Shown here: piece by piece, positions 2,721 through 15,008 of the stretch
How positions within the stretch are numbered: the first letter of the stretch is position 1
How the letters are laid out: every line of letters begins with the position of its first letter
Virus record (IMG/VR): IMGVR_UViG_3300005264_000759
Coordinates: 1 to 37,007 of that record
Strand: one strand, 5' to 3'
DNA length: 37,007 nucleotides
Origin: a virus
The notes under the pieces: model-generated
Databases searched by the model: none
The model's input: only the letters and a program-made list of their open reading frames with translations
What the model was told of the DNA's origin: nothing
Translations under genes and position numbers: made by a program

Positions 2721-2908
2721 TGGATTTACTTATAACTGGACTCTTACTCTGGGTATATAATTTATTATTTCCAGAAACAAGACTGCCATCTAATAACACT
2801 GACATGGAAAACGGAGCAGCCTTCTTTTTCGGTTCAGAGGATTTTATGAATAATTCTGAGTCATCTGAAAAAGTTAATAATGATTATGACGATGGACCAA
2901 ATTGGTAA
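2720..2908 (+). CDS. Small hypothetical protein, hydrophobic N-terminus
   Basis: 62 residues, coupled by TAATG to the gene before. The N-terminus (MDLLITGLLLWVYNLLF) could be a membrane anchor; the rest is acidic and Asn/Ser-rich. It ends 10 bases before the helicase start, and its last codons contain that gene's AAAGGA ribosome site. No family recognised. Confidence 0.55.
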   Translation: MDLLITGLLLWVYNLLFPETRLPSNNTDMENGAAFFFGSEDFMNNSESSEKVNNDYDDGPNW

Positions 2909-2918
2909 AGGAATTAAA

Positions 2919-5129
2919 ATGTCAGTAATTCTTGAAATAGGCAAGGGTGTAAAATGTATTAATCTTCCTAAAGCAGCACAACAAAAAATTAAAAATGATT
3001 TGTGTTTTGATAATCCAGAGTATATAGCGGCAATGAAGCAAGGAAGGTTTATTTCTGCGGATATGCCTTCACATATTCACTTATATTATGCAGAAGGTAA
3101 CACTTTCTGGATTCCAAGAGGGTATATATATTATTTAAGAAAATGGTTACGAATTAATAATCATCTTGTTCAAATTAAAGATTATACATTACTTTTAAAA
3201 CCCTTGAATCTTAAATTTAATGGGAAATTACGATCTTACCAAAAAACAGCACAGAAAGATGTTTTATCATACCCGGTTGGAGTTCTCGAAGCGGCAACCG
3301 GGTGTTTAACGGGTGATACGTTAGTTCGAGTGAATAGAGCTAAAAAAGGATTTCAATGCACTCTAAAAAAATTGTATGAAAGACATAATGCGATTGTTAC
3401 AAAAGGAGTGAGTACATTCAATCACAAAATAAATGGACAAATTTCACGAAATTTTTACCATAAACAATGGGATTTATCTATTCCAACTTTTATACGATCT
3501 TATCATGAGGATGAGAATCAAATTCTACTTACAGAGATTCAGAATGTAATTTATTCTGGAATTAAAAAAGTATATGAATTTACATTAGAAGATGGTAAGC
3601 GATTAAAAGGAACTTTGAAACATAAAATTTTAACTACACAAGGATGGAAAAAATTAGGAGAAATTAAAAAAAATGATTTGGTAATGGTAGATTCACACAG
3701 ACCACAAAAAGGATTAAAAACAAATAATGTAAGAACTGATAAAAGTCGAGAAGGATTAATTTATCATCCAAACACACAAGGAAATAAATTAAATCGAAGA
3801 ACTTTACATATACTAATTTACGAAGCTTATTTGAATAAATTAAGTCTGGAAAAATTTATTCAAATATTAAAAACAGATAGTAAGAAAGCACAGAATCTTA
3901 AATTCGTTGATTCTGAAAAATACCATATACACCATAAAGATCAAGATTGGGAAAATAATGATCCAACAAATCTTGAACAATTAACAATTCTACAACATAA
4001 AAAAATACACATTAAACAAACCAAAAAGAATTTTAATCAAGGAAAGCCTCAATACGTAAGAATAATTAAGAAAAAGTATTTGGGAAAAAAAGAAACCTAT
4101 GATATTTGTTGTAAATCCCCACATAATAATTTTACAGCAAATGATATAGTTGTTCATAATTCTGGAAAAACTGTAACAGCAATTTCAATTATTGTGAAAC
4201 GAAAGCAACCAACATTAATAATAGTTCATAGTAAAGAATTACTATATCAATGGAGGGATGCAATAAAACAATTCACAGACGAAGATTGTGGATTAATCGG
4301 AGATGGAAAATTTCAAATCAAACCTATCACCGTGGGAATTATCAACACTGTCAAGAAGAACGTTCCAAAATTAGAAAAACAGTTTGGTCAAATAATAATG
4401 GATGAGTGTCATCGAATAGTTGCTTCATCCTGGTCTGAGACTATTCAAGAATTTCCTGCAAAACACTATTTAGGTTTAACTGCAACCCCATTTCGGAGGG
4501 ATGGATTGGGTCACGCCATTTTTGCCTGTATTGGCCCTAAACGACATAAAGTTGACAAAAGCATGCTATTTAAAACCAAAGCTGTATTAAAACCTGATGT
4601 TTATAAAGTGCTTTCAAATTTCAGATATGTTTTTACAAACGACTATTCAACAATGATTACAAATTTAACACAAGACAATGCAAGAAATAACTTGATTGTA
4701 AGCACTATTGTTGATGATTTAAAGCGTTACAATGAAAACATACTCATAGTATCAGACAGAAAAAATCATCTCTTAAATATGCAAGAAAAGCTTTACAATG
4801 ACTATAAGCTAAATAGTTTAGTTCTAACTGGAAGTGTAAGTAAAAAAGAAAGAACGGAAACGATTGAACAAGTCAAATCAGGAAAATGTAAAATTCTATT
4901 CGCCACTTTAAGTCTAATTGGCGAAGGATTTGACGCTCCAGATTTAACTACTCTGATTATAACAACTCCAGTTAAGTTCAGCGGCAGATTAATTCAAGCT
5001 TGTGGTCGAGTTTTACGACCGAAAAAAGGAAAAATTCCACGTATTTACGATATAAGAGATCCAGAAGTATCTGTACTTCGATACAGTGGTTTTGCCAGAG
5101 ACAGAATTTATATTTCAGAGTGGGGATAG
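2919..5129 (+). CDS. UvsW-like SF2 DNA helicase, interrupted by an intein
   Basis: 736 residues including a 286-residue intein; about 450 after splicing, near the size of T4 UvsW (503). I chose ATG 2919 (MSVILEIGKG) over the in-frame ATG at 2880 because AAAGGA at 2906-2912 is well spaced for 2919 and the upstream gene ends at 2908. Helicase motifs: Walker A split as AATG/SGKT by the intein, motif II DECH (IIMDECHRI), motif III TATPFRRDG, and motif VI QACGRVLRPKKGK. T4 UvsW unwinds branched recombination intermediates and R-loops, driving the switch to recombination-dependent replication. The protein cannot hydrolyse ATP until the intein is removed. Close relatives are RadD/SSL2-type helicases. 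Confidence 0.9.
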   Translation: MSVILEIGKGVKCINLPKAAQQKIKNDLCFDNPEYIAAMKQGRFISADMPSHIHLYYAEGNTFWIPRGYIYYLRKWLRINNHLVQIKDYTLLLKPLNLKFNGKLRSYQKTAQKDVLSYPVGVLEAATGCLTGDTLVRVNRAKKGFQCTLKKLYERHNAIVTKGVSTFNHKINGQISRNFYHKQWDLSIPTFIRSYHEDENQILLTEIQNVIYSGIKKVYEFTLEDGKRLKGTLKHKILTTQGWKKLGEIKKNDLVMVDSHRPQKGLKTNNVRTDKSREGLIYHPNTQGNKLNRRTLHILIYEAYLNKLSLEKFIQILKTDSKKAQNLKFVDSEKYHIHHKDQDWENNDPTNLEQLTILQHKKIHIKQTKKNFNQGKPQYVRIIKKKYLGKKETYDICCKSPHNNFTANDIVVHNSGKTVTAISIIVKRKQPTLIIVHSKELLYQWRDAIKQFTDEDCGLIGDGKFQIKPITVGIINTVKKNVPKLEKQFGQIIMDECHRIVASSWSETIQEFPAKHYLGLTATPFRRDGLGHAIFACIGPKRHKVDKSMLFKTKAVLKPDVYKVLSNFRYVFTNDYSTMITNLTQDNARNNLIVSTIVDDLKRYNENILIVSDRKNHLLNMQEKLYNDYKLNSLVLTGSVSKKERTETIEQVKSGKCKILFATLSLIGEGFDAPDLTTLIITTPVKFSGRLIQACGRVLRPKKGKIPRIYDIRDPEVSVLRYSGFARDRIYISEWG
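3303..4160 (+). mobile_element. HNH-containing intein in the helicase Walker A motif
   Basis: 286 residues, Cys1 (CLTGDTLVRV) to the terminal His-Asn (DIVVHN), with Ser as first residue of the C-extein. Block A and a block B-like GTLKHKILT are present; block F/G reads NNFTANDIVVHN. Between the splicing blocks lies an HNH nuclease signature (HIHHKDQDWENNDPTNLEQL), so this is a homing-competent intein, not a mini-intein. The insertion falls between Gly and Ser of the ATP-binding loop, a site where loss of the element by imprecise deletion would destroy the helicase. Confidence 0.93.
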
Positions 5130-5769: not shown

Positions 5770-5820
5770 ATGATAAAATTTAATCTAAAAGTTCCTACAA
5801 GTTCAATAAAATTATTATGA
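5770..5820 (+). CDS. 16-residue leader ORF coupled to the primase
   Basis: GGAG at 5760-5763 sits at good distance from this ATG, whereas the primase ATG at 5817 has no ribosome site of its own. The leader ends in TGA overlapping the primase start (ATGA, 5817-5820). The simplest reading is that ribosomes load on the leader and reinitiate at the primase. The peptide (MIKFNLKVPTSSIKLL) has no recognisable function. A similar arrangement occurs at 36582. Confidence 0.5.
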   Translation: MIKFNLKVPTSSIKLL

Positions 5821-6743
5821 GACACATTCAAAAAAACAAGAAGAGAAAAGGACGTATTCCGATAGATCAAATTGATATACGTGAGGTTCTTGATGATTTG
5901 AACATCTATTATTCAGAAAGCGGTAAAAATGTTTCTGATGGTTGGATTGGAGTTACATGTCCATGGTGCGATGATGGAAGTAATCATTTAGGAATACGAT
6001 TAGATGCTGGCACTTGCTCATGCTTTAAATGTGGACAAAGTGGAACAATAATAAAATACTTAGCAGATGAATTAGGTTCATTTAACAAAGCAATTCAGGT
6101 ACTTGGAGATGCTGTACCATTAGAACTGAAATCATTTGAAGAATCTGAAAGAGCAAGAGCAATCAAAGTTGAGTTACCTAAAGAAGCAAAGAGGCAAATA
6201 TCAAAGTATCACGCCGGATATTTAAACTCAAGAGGTTTTGATTATGAAGAACTTACGGATAAATACAATCTACATTTCTGTGGTCCTTATGGAAAATGGG
6301 CAAATAGAATTATAGTTCCAATAATGAAAAATTACAGACTGATTACTTTCACAAGTATTGACATATCGGATGAAGTTTTTATCAGATACAAACATCTACA
6401 GGATGAACTCTCAATAATTCCAATTAAGCAACATTTATTCGGACTTGAATTTACAAACAAGCATTCAATTATCGTAGTAGAAGGCATTTTCGATATGTTT
6501 AGAATCGGTGATGGGGCTGTTTGTACTTTTGGAACAAAGATAACCTCAGAACAGAAAAAAATATTATCAAAATATTCAACAGTTAAGATTGTATTTGATG
6601 GGGATGAAGCAGGACAAATTAATGGAGAAAAATTAGCAAATGATTTAGCGCCTTTTGCAGATGTTAAGTTATTCTTTCTTCCAGAAGGCTCTGACCCTGA
6701 TAAATTGTCTCAAGACGATATCAAGGAAATTAAAAATACGTAA
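5817..6743 (+). CDS. DnaG-type DNA primase
   Basis: 308 residues, shorter than cellular DnaG (about 580) but usual for phage primases lacking the DnaB-binding C-terminal domain. The N-terminal zinc ribbon is CPWC (48-51), H57, then CFKC (69-72), matching CHC2. The TOPRIM core follows: VVEGIFDMF (E222) and IVFDGDEAG (259-266) supply the metal-binding acidic residues. It makes RNA primers for lagging-strand synthesis and should work with the DnaB-family helicase at 9209. Translation appears to depend on the short leader ORF at 5770. Confidence 0.93.
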   Translation: MRHIQKNKKRKGRIPIDQIDIREVLDDLNIYYSESGKNVSDGWIGVTCPWCDDGSNHLGIRLDAGTCSCFKCGQSGTIIKYLADELGSFNKAIQVLGDAVPLELKSFEESERARAIKVELPKEAKRQISKYHAGYLNSRGFDYEELTDKYNLHFCGPYGKWANRIIVPIMKNYRLITFTSIDISDEVFIRYKHLQDELSIIPIKQHLFGLEFTNKHSIIVVEGIFDMFRIGDGAVCTFGTKITSEQKKILSKYSTVKIVFDGDEAGQINGEKLANDLAPFADVKLFFLPEGSDPDKLSQDDIKEIKNT

Positions 6744-6755
6744 AAAGGAGAAAAT

Positions 6756-7199
6756 ATGAATCAATTAAAAGAAATGGAAAAACACAAAAAACATTTAATA
6801 AGACTCAGACCACAAAAAATATCCTATTTAAGTGATGATAATGATTTCATGGTAAATGTATATTGTGAAACTTGCAGCAAAGAATTAATTACTATATCTG
6901 AAAAAGAGGATTTATTTAATAAACCTGTTATTTTTGCTTATCTAAAAAAACCAAAAATATTGAAAGGGAAACTCAATACTAAAATAGATAAAATAGATAT
7001 TGAAAGTAAACTTGAGGAAGCAAATAGTTCCATAACAAGATTAGCTTATGTATTACGAAATAATCAAATCGGAACTGTAGGACGACTTGCCAATTACACA
7101 TTAGCAGAATTCAAGTCTTTACGAATGGTTGGAAAAAAAGTGCTTTTTACAGCAAGAAAGTATTTAAAAACATATGATACAAATTTTCAAGGAGAGTAG
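6756..7199 (+). CDS. RNA polymerase alpha-CTD-like domain protein
   Basis: 147 residues behind AAAAAGGAG. The N-terminal half is basic with one CETC pair (37-40). The C-terminal 55 residues (about 88-142) follow the alpha-CTD/helix-hairpin-helix pattern: SSITRLAYVLRNNQIGTVGR, then YTLAEFKSLRMVGKKVL. By eye it aligns with bacterial RpoA, and residues matching E. coli R265, G296 and K298 are present (R95, G126, K128). In RpoA these contact the minor groove of UP elements. A phage protein with this fold could bind UP-like DNA or replace host alpha-CTD contacts; a generic HhH DNA-binding role is the alternative. It lies directly before a promoter. Confidence 0.65.
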   Translation: MNQLKEMEKHKKHLIRLRPQKISYLSDDNDFMVNVYCETCSKELITISEKEDLFNKPVIFAYLKKPKILKGKLNTKIDKIDIESKLEEANSSITRLAYVLRNNQIGTVGRLANYTLAEFKSLRMVGKKVLFTARKYLKTYDTNFQGE

Positions 7200-7212
7200 A
7201 AAAAATAAAATC

Positions 7213-7241
7213 TTGACAAACACTGATGCATGTATTAATAT
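7213..7241 (+). promoter_or_regulatory. Sigma70-like promoter for the initiator operon
   Basis: TTGACA at 7213-7218, 17-base spacer, then TAATAT at 7236-7241. The next ATG (7425) is about 175 bases from the expected start of transcription, so the message has a long leader with the structure described separately. Confidence 0.7.
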
Positions 7242-7270
7242 ATTTTTTATTAAACAAATGATTTAAAAAA

Positions 7271-7424
7271 GTAGATTGATTACCTACTGTTTGTTTAAAT
7301 GTGAAACATAAACAGAATGATTAAAAAGACTTCTTTAAAAAGTGGTCTTGATTGTTTCAGAAATTTTCTAATCAATTATTTCATAATCATTCAGGATCAG
7401 GACCATTTTTAAAGGAGTTTTTTT
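7271..7424 (+). promoter_or_regulatory. Structured leader with hairpin burying the ribosome site
   Basis: This is most of a 225-base gene-free stretch. 7330-7353 pairs with 7395-7417: 23 pairs (three G-U) and one bulged G at 7342. The 3' arm contains the entire AAAGGAG ribosome site (7411-7417) of the gene at 7425 and runs straight into T7 (7418-7424), so the structure could act as a ribosome-site lock, an intrinsic terminator, or both. Upstream hairpins: GTAG/CTAC (7271-7287) and CTGTTT/AAACAG (7287-7315). GAATGATTA (7315-7323) is complementary to TAATCATTC (7384-7392) in the loop of the big hairpin, which would make a pseudoknot or a competing fold. Confidence 0.75.
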
Positions 7425-7793
7425 ATGTCAAAATTTATTTTAATACAGAACAATAAACCTGAAGTTAGTACAAACAGCAAAACTTACAAATCAGCCAAAA
7501 AGAAATTTCTAAAATATACTTTAAAAAACCCATCTAAAATCCAGTTAAATTCAATTCTACGAGAATTGAATCACATAATAGAGCAGTCATTTGACTTAGA
7601 AGATAGAGGAATAAATGAATTTTTTAATGGAGATATCAACTTATATAATTATTGGAAAAAAAATAAACCTCACAACATTCAAAATATTAAAAATAAAAAA
7701 TACAAAAATCACATTATAGAGCAATTATTTAATATGTCATTGGGAGGTCGTTTACTTAATATTATTGATACTTCAAGAGGATTAATGATATGA
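7425..7793 (+). CDS. Hypothetical protein under leader control
   Basis: 122 residues, lysine/asparagine-rich, mainly helical, with no recognised domain. Its ribosome site AAAGGAG is separated from the ATG by seven Ts and lies in the stem of the leader hairpin. It overlaps the initiator gene by ATGA, so control of this gene should also set initiator synthesis. A replication-related role is inferred from position only. Confidence 0.7.
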   Translation: MSKFILIQNNKPEVSTNSKTYKSAKKKFLKYTLKNPSKIQLNSILRELNHIIEQSFDLEDRGINEFFNGDINLYNYWKKNKPHNIQNIKNKKYKNHIIEQLFNMSLGGRLLNIIDTSRGLMI

Positions 7794-9124
7794 AATACCA
7801 AAAAGTCTTAATAGAAGGGGAGCCATTTAATCCTTATAATTCATATGAGGGGATATTTATTCCTACTGGCCTTGTAGAGTGTACACAAATAAATGATTCA
7901 GTTAAAATTTTATTAGGAAGATTATTTCGATATGCAGGTAAAAATGGCAAAGCATACCCATACAGAGAAACACTATTAAAAGAATGTGGATTTAGAAATA
8001 TAAAAAAACTTGATAGAACAATAAGACAAGCTAAAGATTTAAACTTAATAAAAACAACACCACATATCACAAAGAAGAAAATAGATAATCCCCCAAGTGA
8101 GTATGTTTTTTTATATTCAAAAATGTATGATTCAGGGGAAATTAGCGATGACAAAAATGTCAATAGGGTTACTGACAAAAATGTCAATAGGGGTACTGAC
8201 AAAAATGTCAAACAGAAGAGAGTCAATAAGAAGAGAGTCAATAGAAATAATATTATAAATAATATTAACGAATCCGTAGATTCGTATAAACAAGGGAACA
8301 ATGTTGATCAAAAAAAGCCAATTTTGAAAAAAATAAAAAAAAATAAAAATAAACAAAAATTGCGAAAAAACAAATCTTTTGCCGCAAAATTAAAAAAACG
8401 TAAATTAAAACAACAAAAAATAAAACAAGCAAAAAACATAACAACAAAACCAAAATACAAACACACGATAAAAGATTTAAGAAACTATAACGAACTTATT
8501 GGTCACGGCATTACTGATCACAGAAGTGATAAACCCAAGAATAACTCAATTGACAAACTACACGCTTTATTTTCTTCACAATGTAAAGATCCTTATCATA
8601 CGATTGATACCCCAGAGATTTACGTTAATTTTAAATGGGATATGGATTTATTGATTGAAGTCTTTGAATATCATCTCAAACATACTGTAAAATTTAATAT
8701 GAAACCTGTTAAATCTATAGGGAATTTTATTTTTAGTGAAGGGTATAACGGATTTAAGTCTTGGTCTCCTTTAGTTTATTGGCATCAAAAAATGACAAAG
8801 ACAGCAGAAAACGAATTAACAGAAGAAGGAAAAAAATTCTTATTATCTCTCAAGAGAGCTAAAGTACATGGAATAAGGGATATTGATTCATCAATCATCA
8901 ACAAAGTAGCAAAAGAAACCTATTATGTAGCAAATAATCATGTATTCATGGATGATAAAACAATTACAATGTCTTATCCTCGTGGTATCATAGATACATT
9001 GTCAAGTTATATCAAAGAGCAAACAAACCGAGATAATTTTAAATTAGTTTATATTACGAAAAATGGGTTTATAGATGAATTTTTAGATATCGCCAAGAAA
9101 CGAAACATAATTAAACTTAAATAG
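7790..9124 (+). CDS. Lambda O-like replication initiator (winged-helix)
   Basis: 444 residues. The first 105 residues look like the winged helix-turn-helix of phage replisome organisers (VECTQINDSVKILLGRLFRY, then KAYPYRETLLKECGF and RTIRQAKDLNLIKTT). A low-complexity basic linker (about 115-235) contains the repeated peptide DKNVNR, encoded by DNA iterons. A C-terminal domain (about 250-330) contains FKWDMDLLIEVFEYHL and a NFIFSEGYNGFKSW stretch. The next gene is a DnaB-family helicase, the same order and logic as lambda O-P: the initiator binds iterons within its own gene and brings in helicase. Initiator identity is inferred from fold, repeats and neighbour. Confidence 0.7.
   Translation: MKYQKVLIEGEPFNPYNSYEGIFIPTGLVECTQINDSVKILLGRLFRYAGKNGKAYPYRETLLKECGFRNIKKLDRTIRQAKDLNLIKTTPHITKKKIDNPPSEYVFLYSKMYDSGEISDDKNVNRVTDKNVNRGTDKNVKQKRVNKKRVNRNNIINNINESVDSYKQGNNVDQKKPILKKIKKNKNKQKLRKNKSFAAKLKKRKLKQQKIKQAKNITTKPKYKHTIKDLRNYNELIGHGITDHRSDKPKNNSIDKLHALFSSQCKDPYHTIDTPEIYVNFKWDMDLLIEVFEYHLKHTVKFNMKPVKSIGNFIFSEGYNGFKSWSPLVYWHQKMTKTAENELTEEGKKFLLSLKRAKVHGIRDIDSSIINKVAKETYYVANNHVFMDDKTITMSYPRGIIDTLSSYIKEQTNRDNFKLVYITKNGFIDEFLDIAKKRNIIKLK
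8150..8285 (+). repeat. Candidate replication origin: iterons and dyad inside the initiator gene
   Basis: Three copies begin with GACAAAAATGTCAA at 8150, 8174 and 8198; the first two full units are 24 bases with one mismatch. Each holds the dyad GACA-AAAA-TGTC. Two 15-base units starting AAGAGAGTCAATA follow (8216-8230 and 8231-8245), keeping the GTCAATA core, so five GTCAA sites lie in about 90 bases. After them come an almost pure A/T tract (8243-8267), the perfect stem ACGAATC-CGTA-GATTCGT (8268-8285), and an A-rich stretch to about 8460. This matches the lambda origin plan of iterons followed by an unwinding region. Confidence 0.7.
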
Positions 9125-9208: not shown

Positions 9209-10732
9209 ATGATTCAGAGTAGAAACGTATCTGTAGTGGAAGAAAAACGAATTGTAATTGGATTAATTGTTTCTTCACAATTTATTCAACAAATTTTACC
9301 TATTTTTCAACTCGACTATTTCGTGAATTCATATTTAAAAACTATTGCTTCTTGGTGTATTGTGTTTTATGAAGAACATGAAAAAGCTCCCTATCGCCAC
9401 ATACAAGACATTCATGAAGCTGAATCACTTAATTTAAAAGACTCCGACAGTGAATTAATAGAAGACTTGCTAAAACTATTAACAGAGCAGTATGATCCTG
9501 AATCAGTCAATGTAGATTATTTGAAAGATTGTGCTGTAAACTATTTCAGAAAACGAGAACTTGAAATAGTGGTCAACAATGTTTCAATTTTAAAAGAGAA
9601 AGGAGAGTATGATGAAGCTGAAGCTCAGATTACTCGGTTCTCTAAAGTCACAACTACACTTGACTCCGGAGCAATAATTAATATAGGTGATTTAGCAGAA
9701 GTTACAGAGATATACAGACAACGAGAGGAAGAAGATAAAAAGTTTTTTCATATGCCTGGCGATTTAGGAAGATATCTTGGAAATTTTAAACGTGGGGATG
9801 TGGTGGGATATTACGCACCTGCCAAACGAGGGAAAAGTTGGACTCTTGTTGATCATTTCAAACAAGGAGTACTTCAACGCAAAAAGACTTTATTCTGGTC
9901 TATTGAAATGACAAAAACAGAAATACTCCCACGAATTATGAAATCATTTAAACCGATGGTAGATGAAGAAGGGGAATACACATATCCAGTATTTGATTGC
10001 ATTCATAATCAAACTGGAGATTGTGGAGATAGGCTTTCAAATGTAATCATTCTTGAAGATGATATAAAGATAAATGACCCATCTCACACTCCATGTACAA
10101 CTTGTATGAGATATAATCACCCACATGAATTCGCAATGACTGTACATCTTGCAACAAAGTTCCGAGATTCAGATGATATCTTTACGATACAAAAAATGAT
10201 GGAATCAAAAAGATTAAAAAATCCTTTGATGTCAAAGTTAAATAAATTTGGAAGATTGTCAGTTCATCCAAAATACACTTTAACATATGATAAAATGATG
10301 CGAGACATTGAAATTTTAAATAACAAAGATGGATTCATTCCCGATATTATGATTCTTGATTATATAGATATTCTTGGAATAGATACAGGATATGATAATT
10401 ACAAAGCAGTCGATGAAGCATGGAAATTACTTGCTAAGATAGCAGGGGAATTTAATGTGTTGATGATCACAGCTACACAAGCAAATAAAGAAGGACATTC
10501 AGCAGGAGTATTAAACGCAACTCATCAGGGTGGATATTATGGAAAGAATCAACACGTTAATATTATGGTGGGTTTAAACCAAACTTCAGAAGAAAAAGAA
10601 GTAGGAGTAATTAAGTATGGTATTACTGAAGCTCGTTCTCAGTTTTTTATTCCTGGAAAAACATGTACTGTTTTACAGGATATAAAATCAGGACAAACAT
10701 ACTTGGACTCTTACTACGATTGGAATAGTTAA
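9209..10732 (+). CDS. DnaB-family replicative helicase
   Basis: 507 residues. A helical N-terminal domain (about 1-150) is followed by a RecA-like motor: Walker A APAKRGKS (203-210), SIEMTK (motif 1a-like, 231-236), Walker B MILDYIDIL, and MITATQAN. Between them sits an insertion with four cysteines (C264, C272, C296, C299) that could bind zinc; this is not part of cellular DnaB. It would unwind DNA 5' to 3' at the fork, loaded by the upstream initiator and working with the primase. No dedicated loader (DnaC or lambda P type) was recognised. Confidence 0.9.
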   Translation: MIQSRNVSVVEEKRIVIGLIVSSQFIQQILPIFQLDYFVNSYLKTIASWCIVFYEEHEKAPYRHIQDIHEAESLNLKDSDSELIEDLLKLLTEQYDPESVNVDYLKDCAVNYFRKRELEIVVNNVSILKEKGEYDEAEAQITRFSKVTTTLDSGAIINIGDLAEVTEIYRQREEEDKKFFHMPGDLGRYLGNFKRGDVVGYYAPAKRGKSWTLVDHFKQGVLQRKKTLFWSIEMTKTEILPRIMKSFKPMVDEEGEYTYPVFDCIHNQTGDCGDRLSNVIILEDDIKINDPSHTPCTTCMRYNHPHEFAMTVHLATKFRDSDDIFTIQKMMESKRLKNPLMSKLNKFGRLSVHPKYTLTYDKMMRDIEILNNKDGFIPDIMILDYIDILGIDTGYDNYKAVDEAWKLLAKIAGEFNVLMITATQANKEGHSAGVLNATHQGGYYGKNQHVNIMVGLNQTSEEKEVGVIKYGITEARSQFFIPGKTCTVLQDIKSGQTYLDSYYDWNS

Positions 10733-10753: not shown

Positions 10754-11167
10754 ATGTATCGAATTAGAAAAAAATTTAGGTTTGAAGCGGCACATGTATT
10801 AGATTCAAGTTATTCAAAAGATTGTCAAAACTTACACGGACACTCTTACATTGTGGAATTATTTTTTGAGTCAATAATGTTAAACGATGATGCTATGTTA
10901 ATTGATTTTGGACATATTAAAGACATAGTAAAACCCATCATTGATAAATGGGATCACAGTATTATTGTTTCTGGAATTGGTGAATTAGGATTGCCTGTAT
11001 CAAAACAGAAAGAATTAAATGTAGTGGAATTAGGATACAATCCTACAGCCGAAGTAATGGCATTCGTGTTGTGGGGGTTAATACGAAAACATCTCCCTAT
11101 ACTATCAAAAGTTAGAGTACATGAAACTGAAACGGGTTATGCTGAGTATGAAGGAGAAGATAATTAA
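10754..11167 (+). CDS. queD: QueD, 6-carboxy-5,6,7,8-tetrahydropterin synthase
   Basis: 137 residues, full length for the family, behind AAGGAG. Zinc ligands H14 (FEAAH), H28 and H30 (LHGHSY) and the catalytic C24 (KDCQNLHGH) are in place, followed by DFGHIK, WDHSII, NPTAEVMA and VHETETGYAEY. It converts dihydroneopterin triphosphate, the product of GTP cyclohydrolase I, into carboxytetrahydropterin, the second step of preQ0 synthesis. The C-x3-H-x-H pattern fits QueD rather than the biopterin enzyme. Next to queE, with folE and queC downstream. Confidence 0.93.
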   Translation: MYRIRKKFRFEAAHVLDSSYSKDCQNLHGHSYIVELFFESIMLNDDAMLIDFGHIKDIVKPIIDKWDHSIIVSGIGELGLPVSKQKELNVVELGYNPTAEVMAFVLWGLIRKHLPILSKVRVHETETGYAEYEGEDN

Positions 11168-11803
11168 ATGAATGTCGCAGAAATTTTTTCCTCAATTCAT
11201 GGGGAAGTAAATGGACACCATCAAGGCAGACTTGTTACATTTATTCGTTTATCTGGATGTAATTTAAAATGCTCGTATTGTGATACTAAAGAAACTCAAA
11301 ATTCTGATTATGGAACTCCGATGTCAATTCACGATATTCTTAGAAAAGTTCAAGAATTTGGGAATGACTGTATTTGTTTAACTGGAGGAGAGCCATTATA
11401 TCATGATGATGTAATAAAAGAACTTTTAAAAATATTATGGTTATCAGGATATGCTATCTCTGTTGAAACAAATGGAACAACCGACATTACTCCATTTTTC
11501 AGATATGTAGAATCTTTCGTAATAGATTTTAAATTAGACTTTGTTGATAAAATGATCCATAATAATTTTATCAAATTAAGGAAGACTGATATTATTAAAT
11601 TTGTAATTTCAGATGAAGAACAATTAGCCCAAGCATTATATTGGAAAGCAGAATTTGAACATATGGAAACTGATGCGTTATTTGCTTTTTCTCCTGTACA
11701 TTCTATTATGTCCGCAGAAGAACTTACCAATACATTAATTAAGCAACAAGAAAACAACTGCATAATATCCATGCAAATTCATAAGATATTAAATCTAAAA
11801 TAA
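11168..11803 (+). CDS. queE: QueE, 7-carboxy-7-deazaguanine synthase (radical SAM)
   Basis: 211 residues. The N-terminus carries the substrate segment IFSSIHGEVNGHHQGR and the radical-SAM cluster motif CNLKCSYC (C31, C35, C38), followed by LTGGEP. QueE contracts the pterin ring of carboxytetrahydropterin to 7-carboxy-7-deazaguanine using SAM and a 4Fe-4S cluster. Its ATG follows the queD stop directly. It is the last gene before the 11.83 kb promoter, so queD/queE and queC/folE/dpdA may lie on two transcripts. Confidence 0.93.
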   Translation: MNVAEIFSSIHGEVNGHHQGRLVTFIRLSGCNLKCSYCDTKETQNSDYGTPMSIHDILRKVQEFGNDCICLTGGEPLYHDDVIKELLKILWLSGYAISVETNGTTDITPFFRYVESFVIDFKLDFVDKMIHNNFIKLRKTDIIKFVISDEEQLAQALYWKAEFEHMETDALFAFSPVHSIMSAEELTNTLIKQQENNCIISMQIHKILNLK

Positions 11804-11804
11804 A

Positions 11805-11857
11805 TATTAATTTATTATTAATTTATCATTGACATTTTAATATTTATGTTTTATATT
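11805..11857 (+). promoter_or_regulatory. Promoter with duplicated UP-like element
   Basis: TTGACA at 11829-11834, 17 bases, TATATT at 11852-11857. Upstream are two tandem copies of the 11-mer TATTAATTTAT (11805-11826). The 43 bases from 11805 match 20141-20183 with only three differences. The expected transcript starts near 11864 and opens with the hairpin TGAAGT-GAATT-ACTTCA (11867-11883), which may protect the 5' end. First gene: 11919. Confidence 0.8.
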
Positions 11858-11918
11858 ATCTGCAAGTGAAGTGAATTACTTCATAATAATTATTACTTAA
11901 AAAGAAGGAGAACAACAA

Positions 11919-12488
11919 ATGTCTAAAACGTACCCAGTACCAGAATTTAAAGAAGCGGTAAAGTCTCTTAATGGAGTTCTAAAAAAGCTTAAAAAAGCGA
12001 CAATCAAAACTGACAAAGTTAAAAGAAATGAAGTGTACGAAGCTTTTGTCAAAACAATCCATCAGTTTATTCAAGATAACAAAGTTGAAAAACTTTCCGA
12101 CAATGTAATAGCTTTCTACAATGAGCATGTTGCGGAAGATGAAGGTGATGATAAGAAAGAAAAGAAAGATGCGGGAAAAACAACTAACAAAAAAGCTGAT
12201 AAGAAAACTACCTCTGACAAGAAAGAAACCAAGAAATCCGCTCCTCCTAAAAAAGTAGGTGTATTGGATGCAATTCATACTGCAATTGTTGAAAAAGGTC
12301 CAATATCTAAAAAAGATATTTTGGCTGAGTTAGTTAAAAAGTTTCCAGAACGAGAAGAAAAAGCAATGAAAAATACAATCAACTGTCAAATTGGTGGAAA
12401 GAAAACTCCTCGCAGATTGGAAAAATCAAGAAAGACTTCTTATGTTGTAGATGAGAATAATGCCTTTTCTATAAAAAAGAGCAAATAA
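11919..12488 (+). CDS. Putative DNA-binding protein, two domains and basic linker
   Basis: 189 residues behind AGAAGGAG. An N-terminal helical domain (about 1-75) is joined by a Lys-rich low-complexity linker (80-115) to a C-terminal segment (about 115-185) that looks like a winged helix (VLDAIHTAIVEKGPISKKDI, then LAELVKKFPEREEKAMKNTI). It is the first gene behind a strong promoter and sits between queE and queC but is not itself a queuosine gene. It may regulate this operon or package DNA; function is inferred from composition only. Confidence 0.6.
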   Translation: MSKTYPVPEFKEAVKSLNGVLKKLKKATIKTDKVKRNEVYEAFVKTIHQFIQDNKVEKLSDNVIAFYNEHVAEDEGDDKKEKKDAGKTTNKKADKKTTSDKKETKKSAPPKKVGVLDAIHTAIVEKGPISKKDILAELVKKFPEREEKAMKNTINCQIGGKKTPRRLEKSRKTSYVVDENNAFSIKKSK

Positions 12489-12492
12489 AACA

Positions 12493-13170
12493 ATGACTGG
12501 TGCTGTATGTTTATTGAGCGGTGGGCAAGATTCTACCACTGCTCTATACTGGGCTAAAAATCAATTTAAGAATGTCTTTGCTTTGATTATTGATTATGGA
12601 CAAAGACACTCAATTGAAATAGAATCTGCTAAAAAAATTGCAACCATGTCTGCTGTACCTTATAAAATATTGTATCTTAAAGATTATTTCCAAACATTAA
12701 CAACTTCTGCTTTGATTGGTGAAGGTATCATATCTGGTGCTCATCCCATAAACCCCAATCTTCTCGCTTCTTTTGTACCGGGAAGAAATTTAATTTTTAT
12801 AACTTCTGCATCAATTCTGGCACAACAAATGGGTTATAGAAATGTCGTTACAGGGGTATGTCAAACAGATTATTCGGGATATCCCGATTGTCGAAACAAT
12901 ACAATAGATTCTTTACAAGTTTCATTAAATTTAGGTATGGATTCAAATATTAAAATTCACACCCCTTTAATGTGGCTAAACAAAAGAGAAACAGTTGAAA
13001 TGTCTATGCGATGGCCCAGTTGTTGGAAAGCTTTAGAATACTCCCATTCTTGTTATGAGGGATTAAACCCCCCTTGTGGTAAGTGTCCCTCTTGTATATT
13101 GAGAGAGAAAGGATTTAGAGAGGCTGGGATGACTGATCCAATTTATAATAGGAGTATAAAAGATGAATAA
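12493..13170 (+). CDS. queC: QueC, 7-cyano-7-deazaguanine (preQ0) synthase
   Basis: 225 residues, normal length. The PP-loop SGGQDST (9-15) binds ATP. DYGQRH and VPGRN are family motifs, and the C-terminal zinc site is C187, C195, C198, C201 (CYEG, then PPCGKCPSC). QueC converts 7-carboxy-7-deazaguanine to preQ0 with ammonia and ATP. It completes a preQ0 pathway with folE, queD and queE. No QueF or archaeosine amidotransferase is visible, so preQ0 is the expected end product in this window. Confidence 0.94.
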   Translation: MTGAVCLLSGGQDSTTALYWAKNQFKNVFALIIDYGQRHSIEIESAKKIATMSAVPYKILYLKDYFQTLTTSALIGEGIISGAHPINPNLLASFVPGRNLIFITSASILAQQMGYRNVVTGVCQTDYSGYPDCRNNTIDSLQVSLNLGMDSNIKIHTPLMWLNKRETVEMSMRWPSCWKALEYSHSCYEGLNPPCGKCPSCILREKGFREAGMTDPIYNRSIKDE

Positions 13171-13654
13171 AATAAGTGCAAATAAATACTTTTGGCCTGT
13201 TATGTATATGTTATCTATTCTATTAGGTAATTTATTTGTGATTCAATTTGGAATTGTAAAAGTTTTTGGTTTAACTTTTCCGGCGGGTGTTGTTTTTATT
13301 GGGTTAACTTTCTCATTTAGAGATTTTGTGCAAAGAAAATGGGGAGATTGGGCATGTTGGATTTGGATGGGGTTAGCTATAATAATTACCTTTTTCCTAA
13401 ATCAAAAGGTTGCCTTAGCTTCTGTAGCGGCTTTCGGTATCTCGGAATTTATTGATTGGTTTATTTTTAAATTTCTGAAAGTATCATTAAAGAAAAGGAT
13501 TATGTTTTCCAATTTAATCTCTTGTCCTCTTGATTCCGCTATATTTGTTACTATTACATTTGGTTGGTTCTGGCCTGCTATTTGGGGTCAAGCATTAATT
13601 AAATATATTTCAGGACTTTTGGTTTTACCTTTCATAAAAAATGAGGAAATTTAA
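13163..13654 (+). CDS. yhhQ: YhhQ/VUT-family (DUF165) queuosine precursor transporter
   Basis: 163 residues with about five hydrophobic helices. Family landmarks are FRDFVQRKWG after the second helix, ALASVAAFGISEFIDWFIF, and SNLISCPLDSAIFVTITFGW. Cellular YhhQ imports preQ0/preQ1. Here it would sit in the host membrane and supply precursor to the phage pathway, or recover it. It overlaps queC by 8 bases and abuts folE, which ties it to this pathway. Shorter than E. coli YhhQ (about 220). Confidence 0.85.
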   Translation: MNKISANKYFWPVMYMLSILLGNLFVIQFGIVKVFGLTFPAGVVFIGLTFSFRDFVQRKWGDWACWIWMGLAIIITFFLNQKVALASVAAFGISEFIDWFIFKFLKVSLKKRIMFSNLISCPLDSAIFVTITFGWFWPAIWGQALIKYISGLLVLPFIKNEEI

Positions 13655-14218
13655 ATGAACGATAAAATTCAAAATAATATAATTGAAATATTAAATTATA
13701 TTGGGGAAGATATAAATCGAGAAGGTTTATTAGAAACTCCCAAACGAGTAGTTAATTCTTGGAAAGAATTATATTCAGGCTATGAAAAAGATCCAAAAAA
13801 ACTTTTAAAAACATTTAACTCTGACGGGTATGATCAAATTGTTTTGTTGCGGGATATTGAATTTTATTCTACTTGTGAACATCACATGTTACCTTTTTTT
13901 GGGAAAGCTCACATAGCTTATATTCCCAATAAACGAGTTATTGGCATATCTAAATTAGCCAGATTGTTGGATATTTATGCCCGTAGACTTCAAATACAAG
14001 AACGACTTGGACAACAAGTTATTGCAGTTTTAATGAGTGAGTTAAAAGCTACTGGTGCGGCATGTATTATTGAAGCTACTCACTTCTGTATGCGTAGCAG
14101 GGGTATTCAGAAACAAAATTCAATAATGACTACATCTTCTTTAGCAGGAGTATTTTTAGAAGATAGTACAAAAGGATTAGCCGCCAGAAATGAATTAATG
14201 AGATTAATTCATGCTTGA
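13655..14218 (+). CDS. folE: FolE, GTP cyclohydrolase I
   Basis: 187 residues. The zinc ligands are C74 and H77 (STCEHH) and C145 (THFCM), and other conserved segments are LLETPKRV, GISKLARL and TGAACIIEATHFCM. It converts GTP to dihydroneopterin triphosphate, the substrate of QueD, so the phage can drive deazaguanine synthesis without the host enzyme. It follows the transporter directly and overlaps the DpdA-like gene by 8 bases. Confidence 0.95.
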   Translation: MNDKIQNNIIEILNYIGEDINREGLLETPKRVVNSWKELYSGYEKDPKKLLKTFNSDGYDQIVLLRDIEFYSTCEHHMLPFFGKAHIAYIPNKRVIGISKLARLLDIYARRLQIQERLGQQVIAVLMSELKATGAACIIEATHFCMRSRGIQKQNSIMTTSSLAGVFLEDSTKGLAARNELMRLIHA

Positions 14219-15008
14219 TATTTTCCTTGACAGCGGAGCTTTTACTTTTTTTAATAAAGGGCAAAAAGTCTCGCTAAAAGAATACCATGGATTCGTAAAG
14301 GAACATCTCTCTTTATTGGGAGGTGTTTCTTCTATGGATGTAATTGATTCTGGTGAAAAATCTATCAAAAAATTTCACAGATTAAGAAAAACGGGAATTG
14401 ATTACATCCCTTGTTATCATTATGGAGAACCTCCTTCAGTATTACAAGAGTATATAAAATATTCAGAAATAGTATCTATAGGAGGGACTGTTCCAATTTC
14501 TTATGCAAAACTTTTACCCTGGCTTGATAATCTCTTTACAAAATATATCTGCGATAAAGATAGAAATCCCATTGTAAAAACTCACGGATTTGGTCTAACA
14601 GATCAAAGATTGATGTTCAGATATCCATGGTATAGTGTAGATTCTTCAACATGGATTCGTGTATCAAGAATGGGTATGCTACTTTTGCCAAGACGAGTAA
14701 GAGATAAAGTACGATGGGATAAACAACCTATGCGAATTCAAGTATCGGATAAAGGACCGATGAAAAATGGAGCAGATTCACACATTGATATAATGCCAAA
14801 AATGGAAAAAGAAAAAGTTTTAACAATCATAAAAGATAAAGGATTTAAATTAGGCAAAACAGTAAACGAAAAAGTTGTAGAAGTGGGGTTATGTAATTCA
14901 TTTGCTTTGCGAGATAAATTTAATATGCTGTATATGCTTGAATTAGAATCCAATTTGCCTGAATATCCTTATAAATTAAATATCAAACATCAAAAAGTTT
15001 TCATATGA
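14211..15008 (+). CDS. dpdA: DpdA-like DNA guanine transglycosylase
   Basis: 265 residues. TGT-superfamily marks are LDSGAFTFF (D7), SMDVID (D43), VSIGGTVP, THGFGLTD and YSVDSSTW (D144). In tRNA-guanine transglycosylases the matching segments are DSGGFQ, the GG substrate loop and the Asp nucleophile region. Phage DpdA proteins swap guanine in DNA for preQ0 or a derivative. Last gene of the preQ0 cluster, overlapping folE. Relatives I remember start with an extra module (MK-Y/F-LAG and an aromatic-rich strand) before the DSGAF motif; here the protein begins at the motif and a similar module follows as the next ORF. Assignment is from motifs and context. Confidence 0.82.
   Translation: MLDIFLDSGAFTFFNKGQKVSLKEYHGFVKEHLSLLGGVSSMDVIDSGEKSIKKFHRLRKTGIDYIPCYHYGEPPSVLQEYIKYSEIVSIGGTVPISYAKLLPWLDNLFTKYICDKDRNPIVKTHGFGLTDQRLMFRYPWYSVDSSTWIRVSRMGMLLLPRRVRDKVRWDKQPMRIQVSDKGPMKNGADSHIDIMPKMEKEKVLTIIKDKGFKLGKTVNEKVVEVGLCNSFALRDKFNMLYMLELESNLPEYPYKLNIKHQKVFI

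Follow-up and report, generated by a model that had tools for sequence, protein, structure and literature searches.

The timing and amount of initiator synthesis in phages have mostly been studied through promoters and repressors. In plasmid ColIb-P9 (IncIα/IncB), a pseudoknot in the leader of the initiator gene repZ opens a hidden ribosome site, and a 5′ hairpin makes a loop–loop contact; this switch is translational only and is coupled to a leader peptide and to the antisense Inc RNA. The antisense immunity RNAs CI of phage P4 and C4 of phage P1 act by pairing in the leader of a replication or lytic operon, which results in premature termination. The pT181-type attenuator also lies in an initiator leader, where an upstream antiterminator base-pairs with the terminator's 5′ arm, a 5′ hairpin acts as the sensor and an antisense RNA is the signal (PMC4878617). 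The HMP-PP (thiS motif) riboswitch is a small, sequence-conserved element that binds HMP-PP and precedes thiamin genes. It is an intrinsic terminator with a pseudoknot-capable loop, has two mutually exclusive folds, and in its ON fold an upstream:loop pseudoknot breaks the base of the terminator near the U-run (PMC6478431).

The leader described here, of ~180 nt, is located between the primase and initiator genes of an uncultivated phage. The whole stretch of DNA analysed (the window) is a 37-kb record (IMGVR_UViG_3300005264_000759; 37,007 nt) of ~30% G+C, in which the leader and the replication genes lie on the + strand; L-numbers denote related loci in viral contigs, which were found through helicase and primase queries. 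These leaders share their logic with the HMP-PP, pT181 and ColIb-P9 systems, yet fail tested defining features of each. As in ColIb-P9 repZ, an initiator leader has a predicted pseudoknot and a 5′ hairpin that may make a loop–loop contact, with a hidden ribosome site only in the window, L002, L003 and L014; unlike repZ, an intrinsic terminator is present and a conserved leader peptide is absent. The resemblance to P4 CI and P1 C4 lies in RNA pairing within the leader of a phage operon, but a second complementary copy is absent, the hairpin is an intrinsic terminator, and the window and related leaders have no match to the Rfam C4 family. With the pT181-type attenuator (PMC4878617) the leaders have in common their place before an initiator, an upstream candidate antiterminator and a 5′ hairpin suited to sensing, whereas the upstream segment pairs with the loop and not the arm, and no antisense promoter was found. 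The likeness to the HMP-PP riboswitch is one of design, namely an intrinsic terminator whose loop can form a pseudoknot, with two mutually exclusive folds and a putative ON fold that breaks the terminator base (PMC6478431). Unlike that riboswitch, the phage leaders have stems of 24–37 bp and loops of 34–143 nt, are unrelated in sequence between subgroups and precede replication genes, and they give no covariance-model match to the HMP-PP riboswitch.

Neither the window nor the leaders of 11 related loci match any Rfam family at its gathering score, and no Rfam riboswitch is matched at E-values up to 5 (window and L002) or up to 2 (L004 and L006). Low-scoring matches to microRNA and snoRNA families were set aside as generic long hairpins. 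Such a leader was not found described in the open-access literature; as this scope excludes most subscription papers, the evidence for novelty is weak.

The leader and its replication operon

A DnaG-type primase gene (5817–6743) lies upstream of the leader. The operon behind the leader begins with a gene for a 122-aa protein without a family match (7425–7793), followed by a replication initiator (7790–9124; phrog_270, HTH_36-like) that contains three 24-bp iterons (8149–8220) marking a probable origin, and then by a DnaB-like replicative helicase (9209–10732; phrog_19). This arrangement bears out the link to replication that had been proposed in the preliminary description. The iterons are TGACAAAAATGTCA palindromes, and their location inside the initiator gene indicates a probable lambda-O-like origin. 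Iterons of 24 nt also occur within the initiator genes of L004 (at 4839) and L006 (at 3174), while the same gene of L010 holds a 30-bp repeat. The window also encodes a polymerase, a clamp and a ligase. At 2880–5129 it carries a DNA helicase in which an intein-like splicing domain and an HNH segment (PF14890, PF13392) are found between the helicase halves. The genes at 10754–15008 comprise QueD, QueE, QueC, GTP cyclohydrolase and a TGT-like gene, and probably serve 7-deazaguanine DNA modification.

A sigma70-like promoter is predicted at 7213–7241, with TTGACA (7213–7218) and TAATAT (7236–7241) separated by 17 nt. The terminator hairpin begins 82 nt past the end of this −10 element, and six leaders (window, L002, L003, L004, L010 and L014) have a promoter-like site whose −10 ends 82–90 nt before the hairpin. 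The 5′ domain that follows is closed by helix P1 (7250–7298; 7250–7258 with 7290–7298), the pairing of which is kept with other letters in L002, L003, L004, L005, L010, L014 and L016. Within it, hairpin P2 (7270–7288) pairs 7270–7274 with 7284–7288 around a 9-nt loop (7275–7283), and its pairs are likewise kept in relatives with other letters. Most of this loop, AUUGAUUA at 7275–7282, is complementary to 7369–7376 in the middle of the terminator loop. This kissing contact, K, comprises 7–8 bp and covaries in the window, L002, L003, L006 and L016, while in L014, L010 and L004 it is not significant; K is thus likely in part of the close group and is not claimed as established in general. A tentative third contact, seen by pairing, joins UGAAAC (7302–7307) to GUUUCA (7354–7359) at the 5′ end of the terminator loop, and L003 has GAGAC/GUCUC at the same place.

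A 31-codon ORF at 7317 was considered as a leader peptide, as its GLDC and QD(R)DH segments seem to be shared between the window and L002. It was ruled out on reading the sequences by eye: L003 has a frame shift within the ORF, and both start and end are missing from L014. Since neither frame nor start is kept in these leaders, the likeness is accounted for by the RNA stem.

Terminator hairpin and competing pseudoknot

The long hairpin of the window pairs its 5′ arm (7324–7353) with its 3′ arm (7395–7424) at 28 of 30 positions. The preliminary description had placed the stem at 7330–7353 and 7395–7417; these coordinates are right, and pairing continues outward from them. Its reading as an intrinsic terminator also holds, as a stable hairpin is followed directly by seven Ts (7418–7424). 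When folded, the hairpin reaches −36.5 kcal/mol, compared with −21.4 ± 3.2 kcal/mol for 200 shuffled sequences (z −4.67; 0 of 200 as good), a stability far beyond chance, and it is the only hairpin with a long stem, a long loop and a T-run on either strand of the 37-kb window. Within the terminator loop, a small hairpin (7360–7382; 7360–7364 with 7378–7382) presents the K site, and equivalents are found in L002, L003, L004, L010 and L014.

In the window, the Shine–Dalgarno sequence AAAGGAG (7411–7417) of the gene starting with ATG at 7425 falls inside the 3′ arm, as had been noted. This burial extends to L002, L003 and L014, which with the window form the closest group, and fails in L004, L005, L006 and L010, where the terminator comes first and the ribosome site after it. 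It is this position of the ribosome site that points to transcription attenuation as the shared function. An RNA thermometer is unlikely, given a stem of 28 pairs for which energies in the closest group range from −31 to −41 kcal/mol.

Immediately upstream of the 5′ arm, positions 7315–7323 (GAATGATTA) are the exact complement of the loop bases 7384–7392 (TAATCATTC). The two strands of this pairing, S1, are GAAUGAUUA (S1a) and UAAUCAUUC (S1b). Taken by itself, the 9-bp pairing of the window is marginal (shuffle p 0.03–0.06), and 7% of swapped controls equal it; its significance comes from the relatives and not from the window alone. In the close group, all nine positions vary in type yet stay paired, eight of them changed on both sides and the ninth being A–U or G–U, as can be seen from L002 (UUGACAGGG/CCCUGUCAA), L014 (UUGAAAGGG/CCCUUUCAA) and L006 (GAAUGGUUA/UAAUCAUUC). 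The sole break in this group is at the outermost pair in L003. A pseudoknot or competing fold had been proposed for this match, and the covariation present in relatives upholds the pairing as real. Its role is better seen as that of a competitor of the hairpin, resembling an antiterminator, than as one piece of a single static fold.

Folding of the growing transcript was computed for 15 leaders. S1 is part of the minimum-energy fold in nine of them (window, L002, L014, L006, L005, L072, L078, L082 and L096) and equals or nearly equals the minimum in L004, L010 and L070, losing to the terminator only once the last 10–20 nt of the 3′ arm emerge. If the polymerase still covers the final 10–14 nt up to the end of the U-run, most leaders have their two folds 0–6 kcal/mol apart, L083 and L088 being exceptions and L003, L004 and L070 going somewhat beyond this range at the later point; S1 is behind by 5–10 kcal/mol at the decision point in L003, L004, L010 and L070. 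S1 is never the minimum in L003, is weak relative to the terminator in L083 and L088, and does not compete with the best hairpin in L065. The full terminator beats S1 once the 3′ arm is complete, so antitermination would need kinetics or assistance.

Linkers of 0–7 nt on one side and 0–2 nt on the other in the window, L002, L003, L014 and L006 suggest, on geometric grounds, that S1, with its 9 bp, and a completely zipped stem of 26–33 bp are mutually exclusive, and that the base near the U-run must open. Because S1 would exclude the zipped stem in these leaders, it is interpreted as the antiterminator, the OFF state being the full hairpin. In L004, L005, L065, L072 and L078 the linkers measure 20–37 nt, and pseudoknot and stem could coexist. 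A covarying alternative pairing that competes with the terminator, one of the features expected of a transcription attenuator, is thus present in these leaders. The + strand folds more stably than the − strand in 15 of 16 leaders, and this asymmetry, together with G–U pairs that fall mostly on the + (transcript) strand, argues that RNA is the functional form.

Recurrence of the layout in related phages

Nucleotide searches of the window region against 50,697 phage records gave no match, and initiator and first-gene queries against viral contigs found no relatives. Among the loci reached through helicase and primase, the hairpin lies after the DnaG-like primase and before the initiator–helicase operon. 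The leader is recognisable by sequence in L002, L003 and L014, and in L002 it is the sole stretch of window positions 6705–8444 that aligns as DNA (78% over 114 nt). The layout returns, spelled in different letters, in L004, L005, L006 and L010, the terminator being the common part. A covariance model built from four close leaders also matches L010, L016, L006 (as L017) and L005 (as L015), all of which are outside the model. The covariance-model search found no convincing second copy in any record, each of which holds a single copy. L016 (5695–5960) carries only the 5′ half of the leader hairpin, which a deletion has brought next to a truncated initiator. The element looks as though it had been broken within its loop by recombination, and a second initiator comes after. 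The L006 phage contig (L043; JAVCCH010000098.1) is binned in a genome of Candidatus Tenebribacter davisii (Cloacimonadota), which is a weak hint at the host.

Primase relatives were followed down to ~30% identity, with hairpins sought by stem and T-run alone. Such hairpins are found 3′ of the primase in L065, L070, L072, L078, L082, L083, L088 and L096 and, where checked, precede an initiator-sized gene (after a small gene in L065) and a phrog_19 helicase. In total, T-run hairpins are present in 16 relatives. The distant leaders have stem, loop and pseudoknot without common sequence; upstream:loop pairings of 8–14 bp nonetheless recur in them, with unrelated letters, for example in L078 (ACGGCUAAAACAAG/CUUGUUUUAGCCGU) and L072 (GGUUUACGGG/CCCGUAAACC). 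Measured against dinucleotide-shuffled loops, the upstream:loop pairing has a combined Fisher p of ~4e-15 over 18 leaders, of which the close-group members are not fully independent, and the mean pairing score is 22.7 for own leaders compared with 14.7 (sd 3.0) for swapped leaders. A scan of both strands of the fetched loci, in which hairpins were picked solely for a long stem, a long loop and a T-run, returned 22 hairpins. The 17 on the + strand have pairing scores of 17.5–34 and, where checked, are followed by the initiator–helicase operon, whereas the five on the other strand score 12–18.5. The + strand set adds L024, with a pairing of 13 bp, and L069, which in its redefined form pairs over 11 bp. 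A further pairing was spotted by eye in L068 (GUUUUGAGG/CCUCAAAAC).

In L081 the hairpin is present and a significant S1 pairing is absent. Of the primase relatives that have a helicase downstream, more than half show no such hairpin, so that within the lineage the element is common and not universal. The conserved part is the terminator with its upstream:loop pairing, and the buried ribosome site occurs only in the closest group. In L071 (6894–7037), a long hairpin without a T-run follows the primase and buries a GGGAG ribosome site, and is perhaps a translation-only form of the same idea. The contig of L083 carries three type II hammerhead ribozymes (800–867, 1211–1281 and 2685–2750; Rfam RF02276), all above the gathering score and no more than a few kb upstream of the primase. 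Two other candidates were rejected. T5-like and SPO1-like phages that encode a related primase differ in gene order and have little room after the primase, and a 28-base match to the L002 leader in MT836540.1 overlies the ribosome site before a start codon, where the hairpin is of a different, short-stem kind.

Candidate mechanism and alternative explanations

This phage replication operon probably has a conditional transcription terminator, or attenuator, in its 5′ leader, with the pseudoknot as the antiterminator. Transcription would start near 7248, and S1a would pair with S1b in the 3′ part of the loop before the 3′ arm exists, perhaps assisted by the P2 loop kissing the central part of the terminator loop. 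S1 would then trap the 5′ arm, full zipping would be delayed or blocked, and the polymerase would read through, leaving the ribosome site open. Were S1a occupied instead, by a ligand, a protein, another RNA or an upstream pairing, the long hairpin would zip and transcription would stop in the U-run. In the OFF state of the closest subgroup, any read-through message would additionally have its ribosome site buried. The pseudoknot would thus be the ON state and would control the level of initiator, with the pseudoknot itself presumably subject to regulation.

What occupies S1a is where several alternatives diverge. The signal could be an antisense or trans-acting RNA, as in plasmid copy-number control, with either an antisense transcript or, in trans, the leader RNA left by termination binding the P2 loop or S1a, causing termination and restraining the initiator in a dose-dependent manner. 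The leader precedes a replication initiator, five leaders have a P2 loop with full complementarity to the terminator loop, and YUNR, the U-turn motif typical of antisense targets, occurs in the P2 loops of the window, L002, L003, L004, L006 and L016. There is also a precedent in pT181, where the antisense RNA first kisses the 5′ hairpin (PMC4878617). We nevertheless regard this as unlikely, because the best antisense promoter is no better than in shuffled sequences in 16 of 16 leaders, the stable fold is on the + and not the − strand, and each record has one leader copy. Control by a phage or host protein that binds the loop and blocks or promotes the terminator, in autoregulation or an early-to-middle switch, stands at a similarly low probability; a (U/C)RCCA-type loop does recur on the small hairpin of several close relatives, but the motif is missing from distant leaders and the operon revealed no conserved RNA-binding protein. 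Somewhat less probable still is a metabolite riboswitch of phage or host, in which the 5′ domain and the terminator loop would form a ligand pocket stabilising the pseudoknot. The isolated DNA alignment of the leader to L002, the conservation of loop and stem tip in the closest group and a platform geometry like that of the HMP-PP riboswitch would fit this reading, while the wider family keeps architecture and not sequence, unlike a fixed pocket, and neither Rfam riboswitch matches nor neighbouring genes point to a ligand.

Two further alternatives dispense with switching by RNA. A plain strong terminator, serving as a read-through shield for the replication genes or as an RNase III-type stem, would make the upstream:loop pairing incidental. 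The textbook combination of hairpin and T-run and the marginal S1 of the window agree with it, but a recurrent, covarying upstream:loop pairing and loops of such length would be unexpected, and at least six leaders place the hairpin 3′ of a sigma70-like promoter of the same operon; we consider it improbable. A DNA element, such as a single-strand origin or an initiator site, is suggested by the nearby probable origin and is the most doubtful of all, given that the iterons lie inside the initiator gene and not in the leader, that G–U pairs are concentrated on the transcript strand and that the other strand is 4–16 kcal/mol worse in most leaders.

The attenuator reading is directly testable by swap-and-restore mutants, because both folds can be specified base by base. 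The same two-way design in ~16 related phages suggests an RNA switch on phage replication that has so far escaped cataloguing. More tentatively, and a little short of an even chance in our judgement, it may represent a new and widespread class of phage attenuators whose members share an architecture instead of a sequence. In this class, a very long terminator hairpin would have its loop paired with the 5′ leader, and this pairing would serve as a co-transcriptional antiterminator that times or limits the synthesis of initiator and helicase. Sequence-based RNA family searches miss such elements, as none of these leaders matches Rfam. The control point looks to be built purely of RNA, and its layout survives complete turnover of sequence; its logic resembles that of plasmid copy-number leaders, but in phages that replicate through a primase, an initiator and a helicase.
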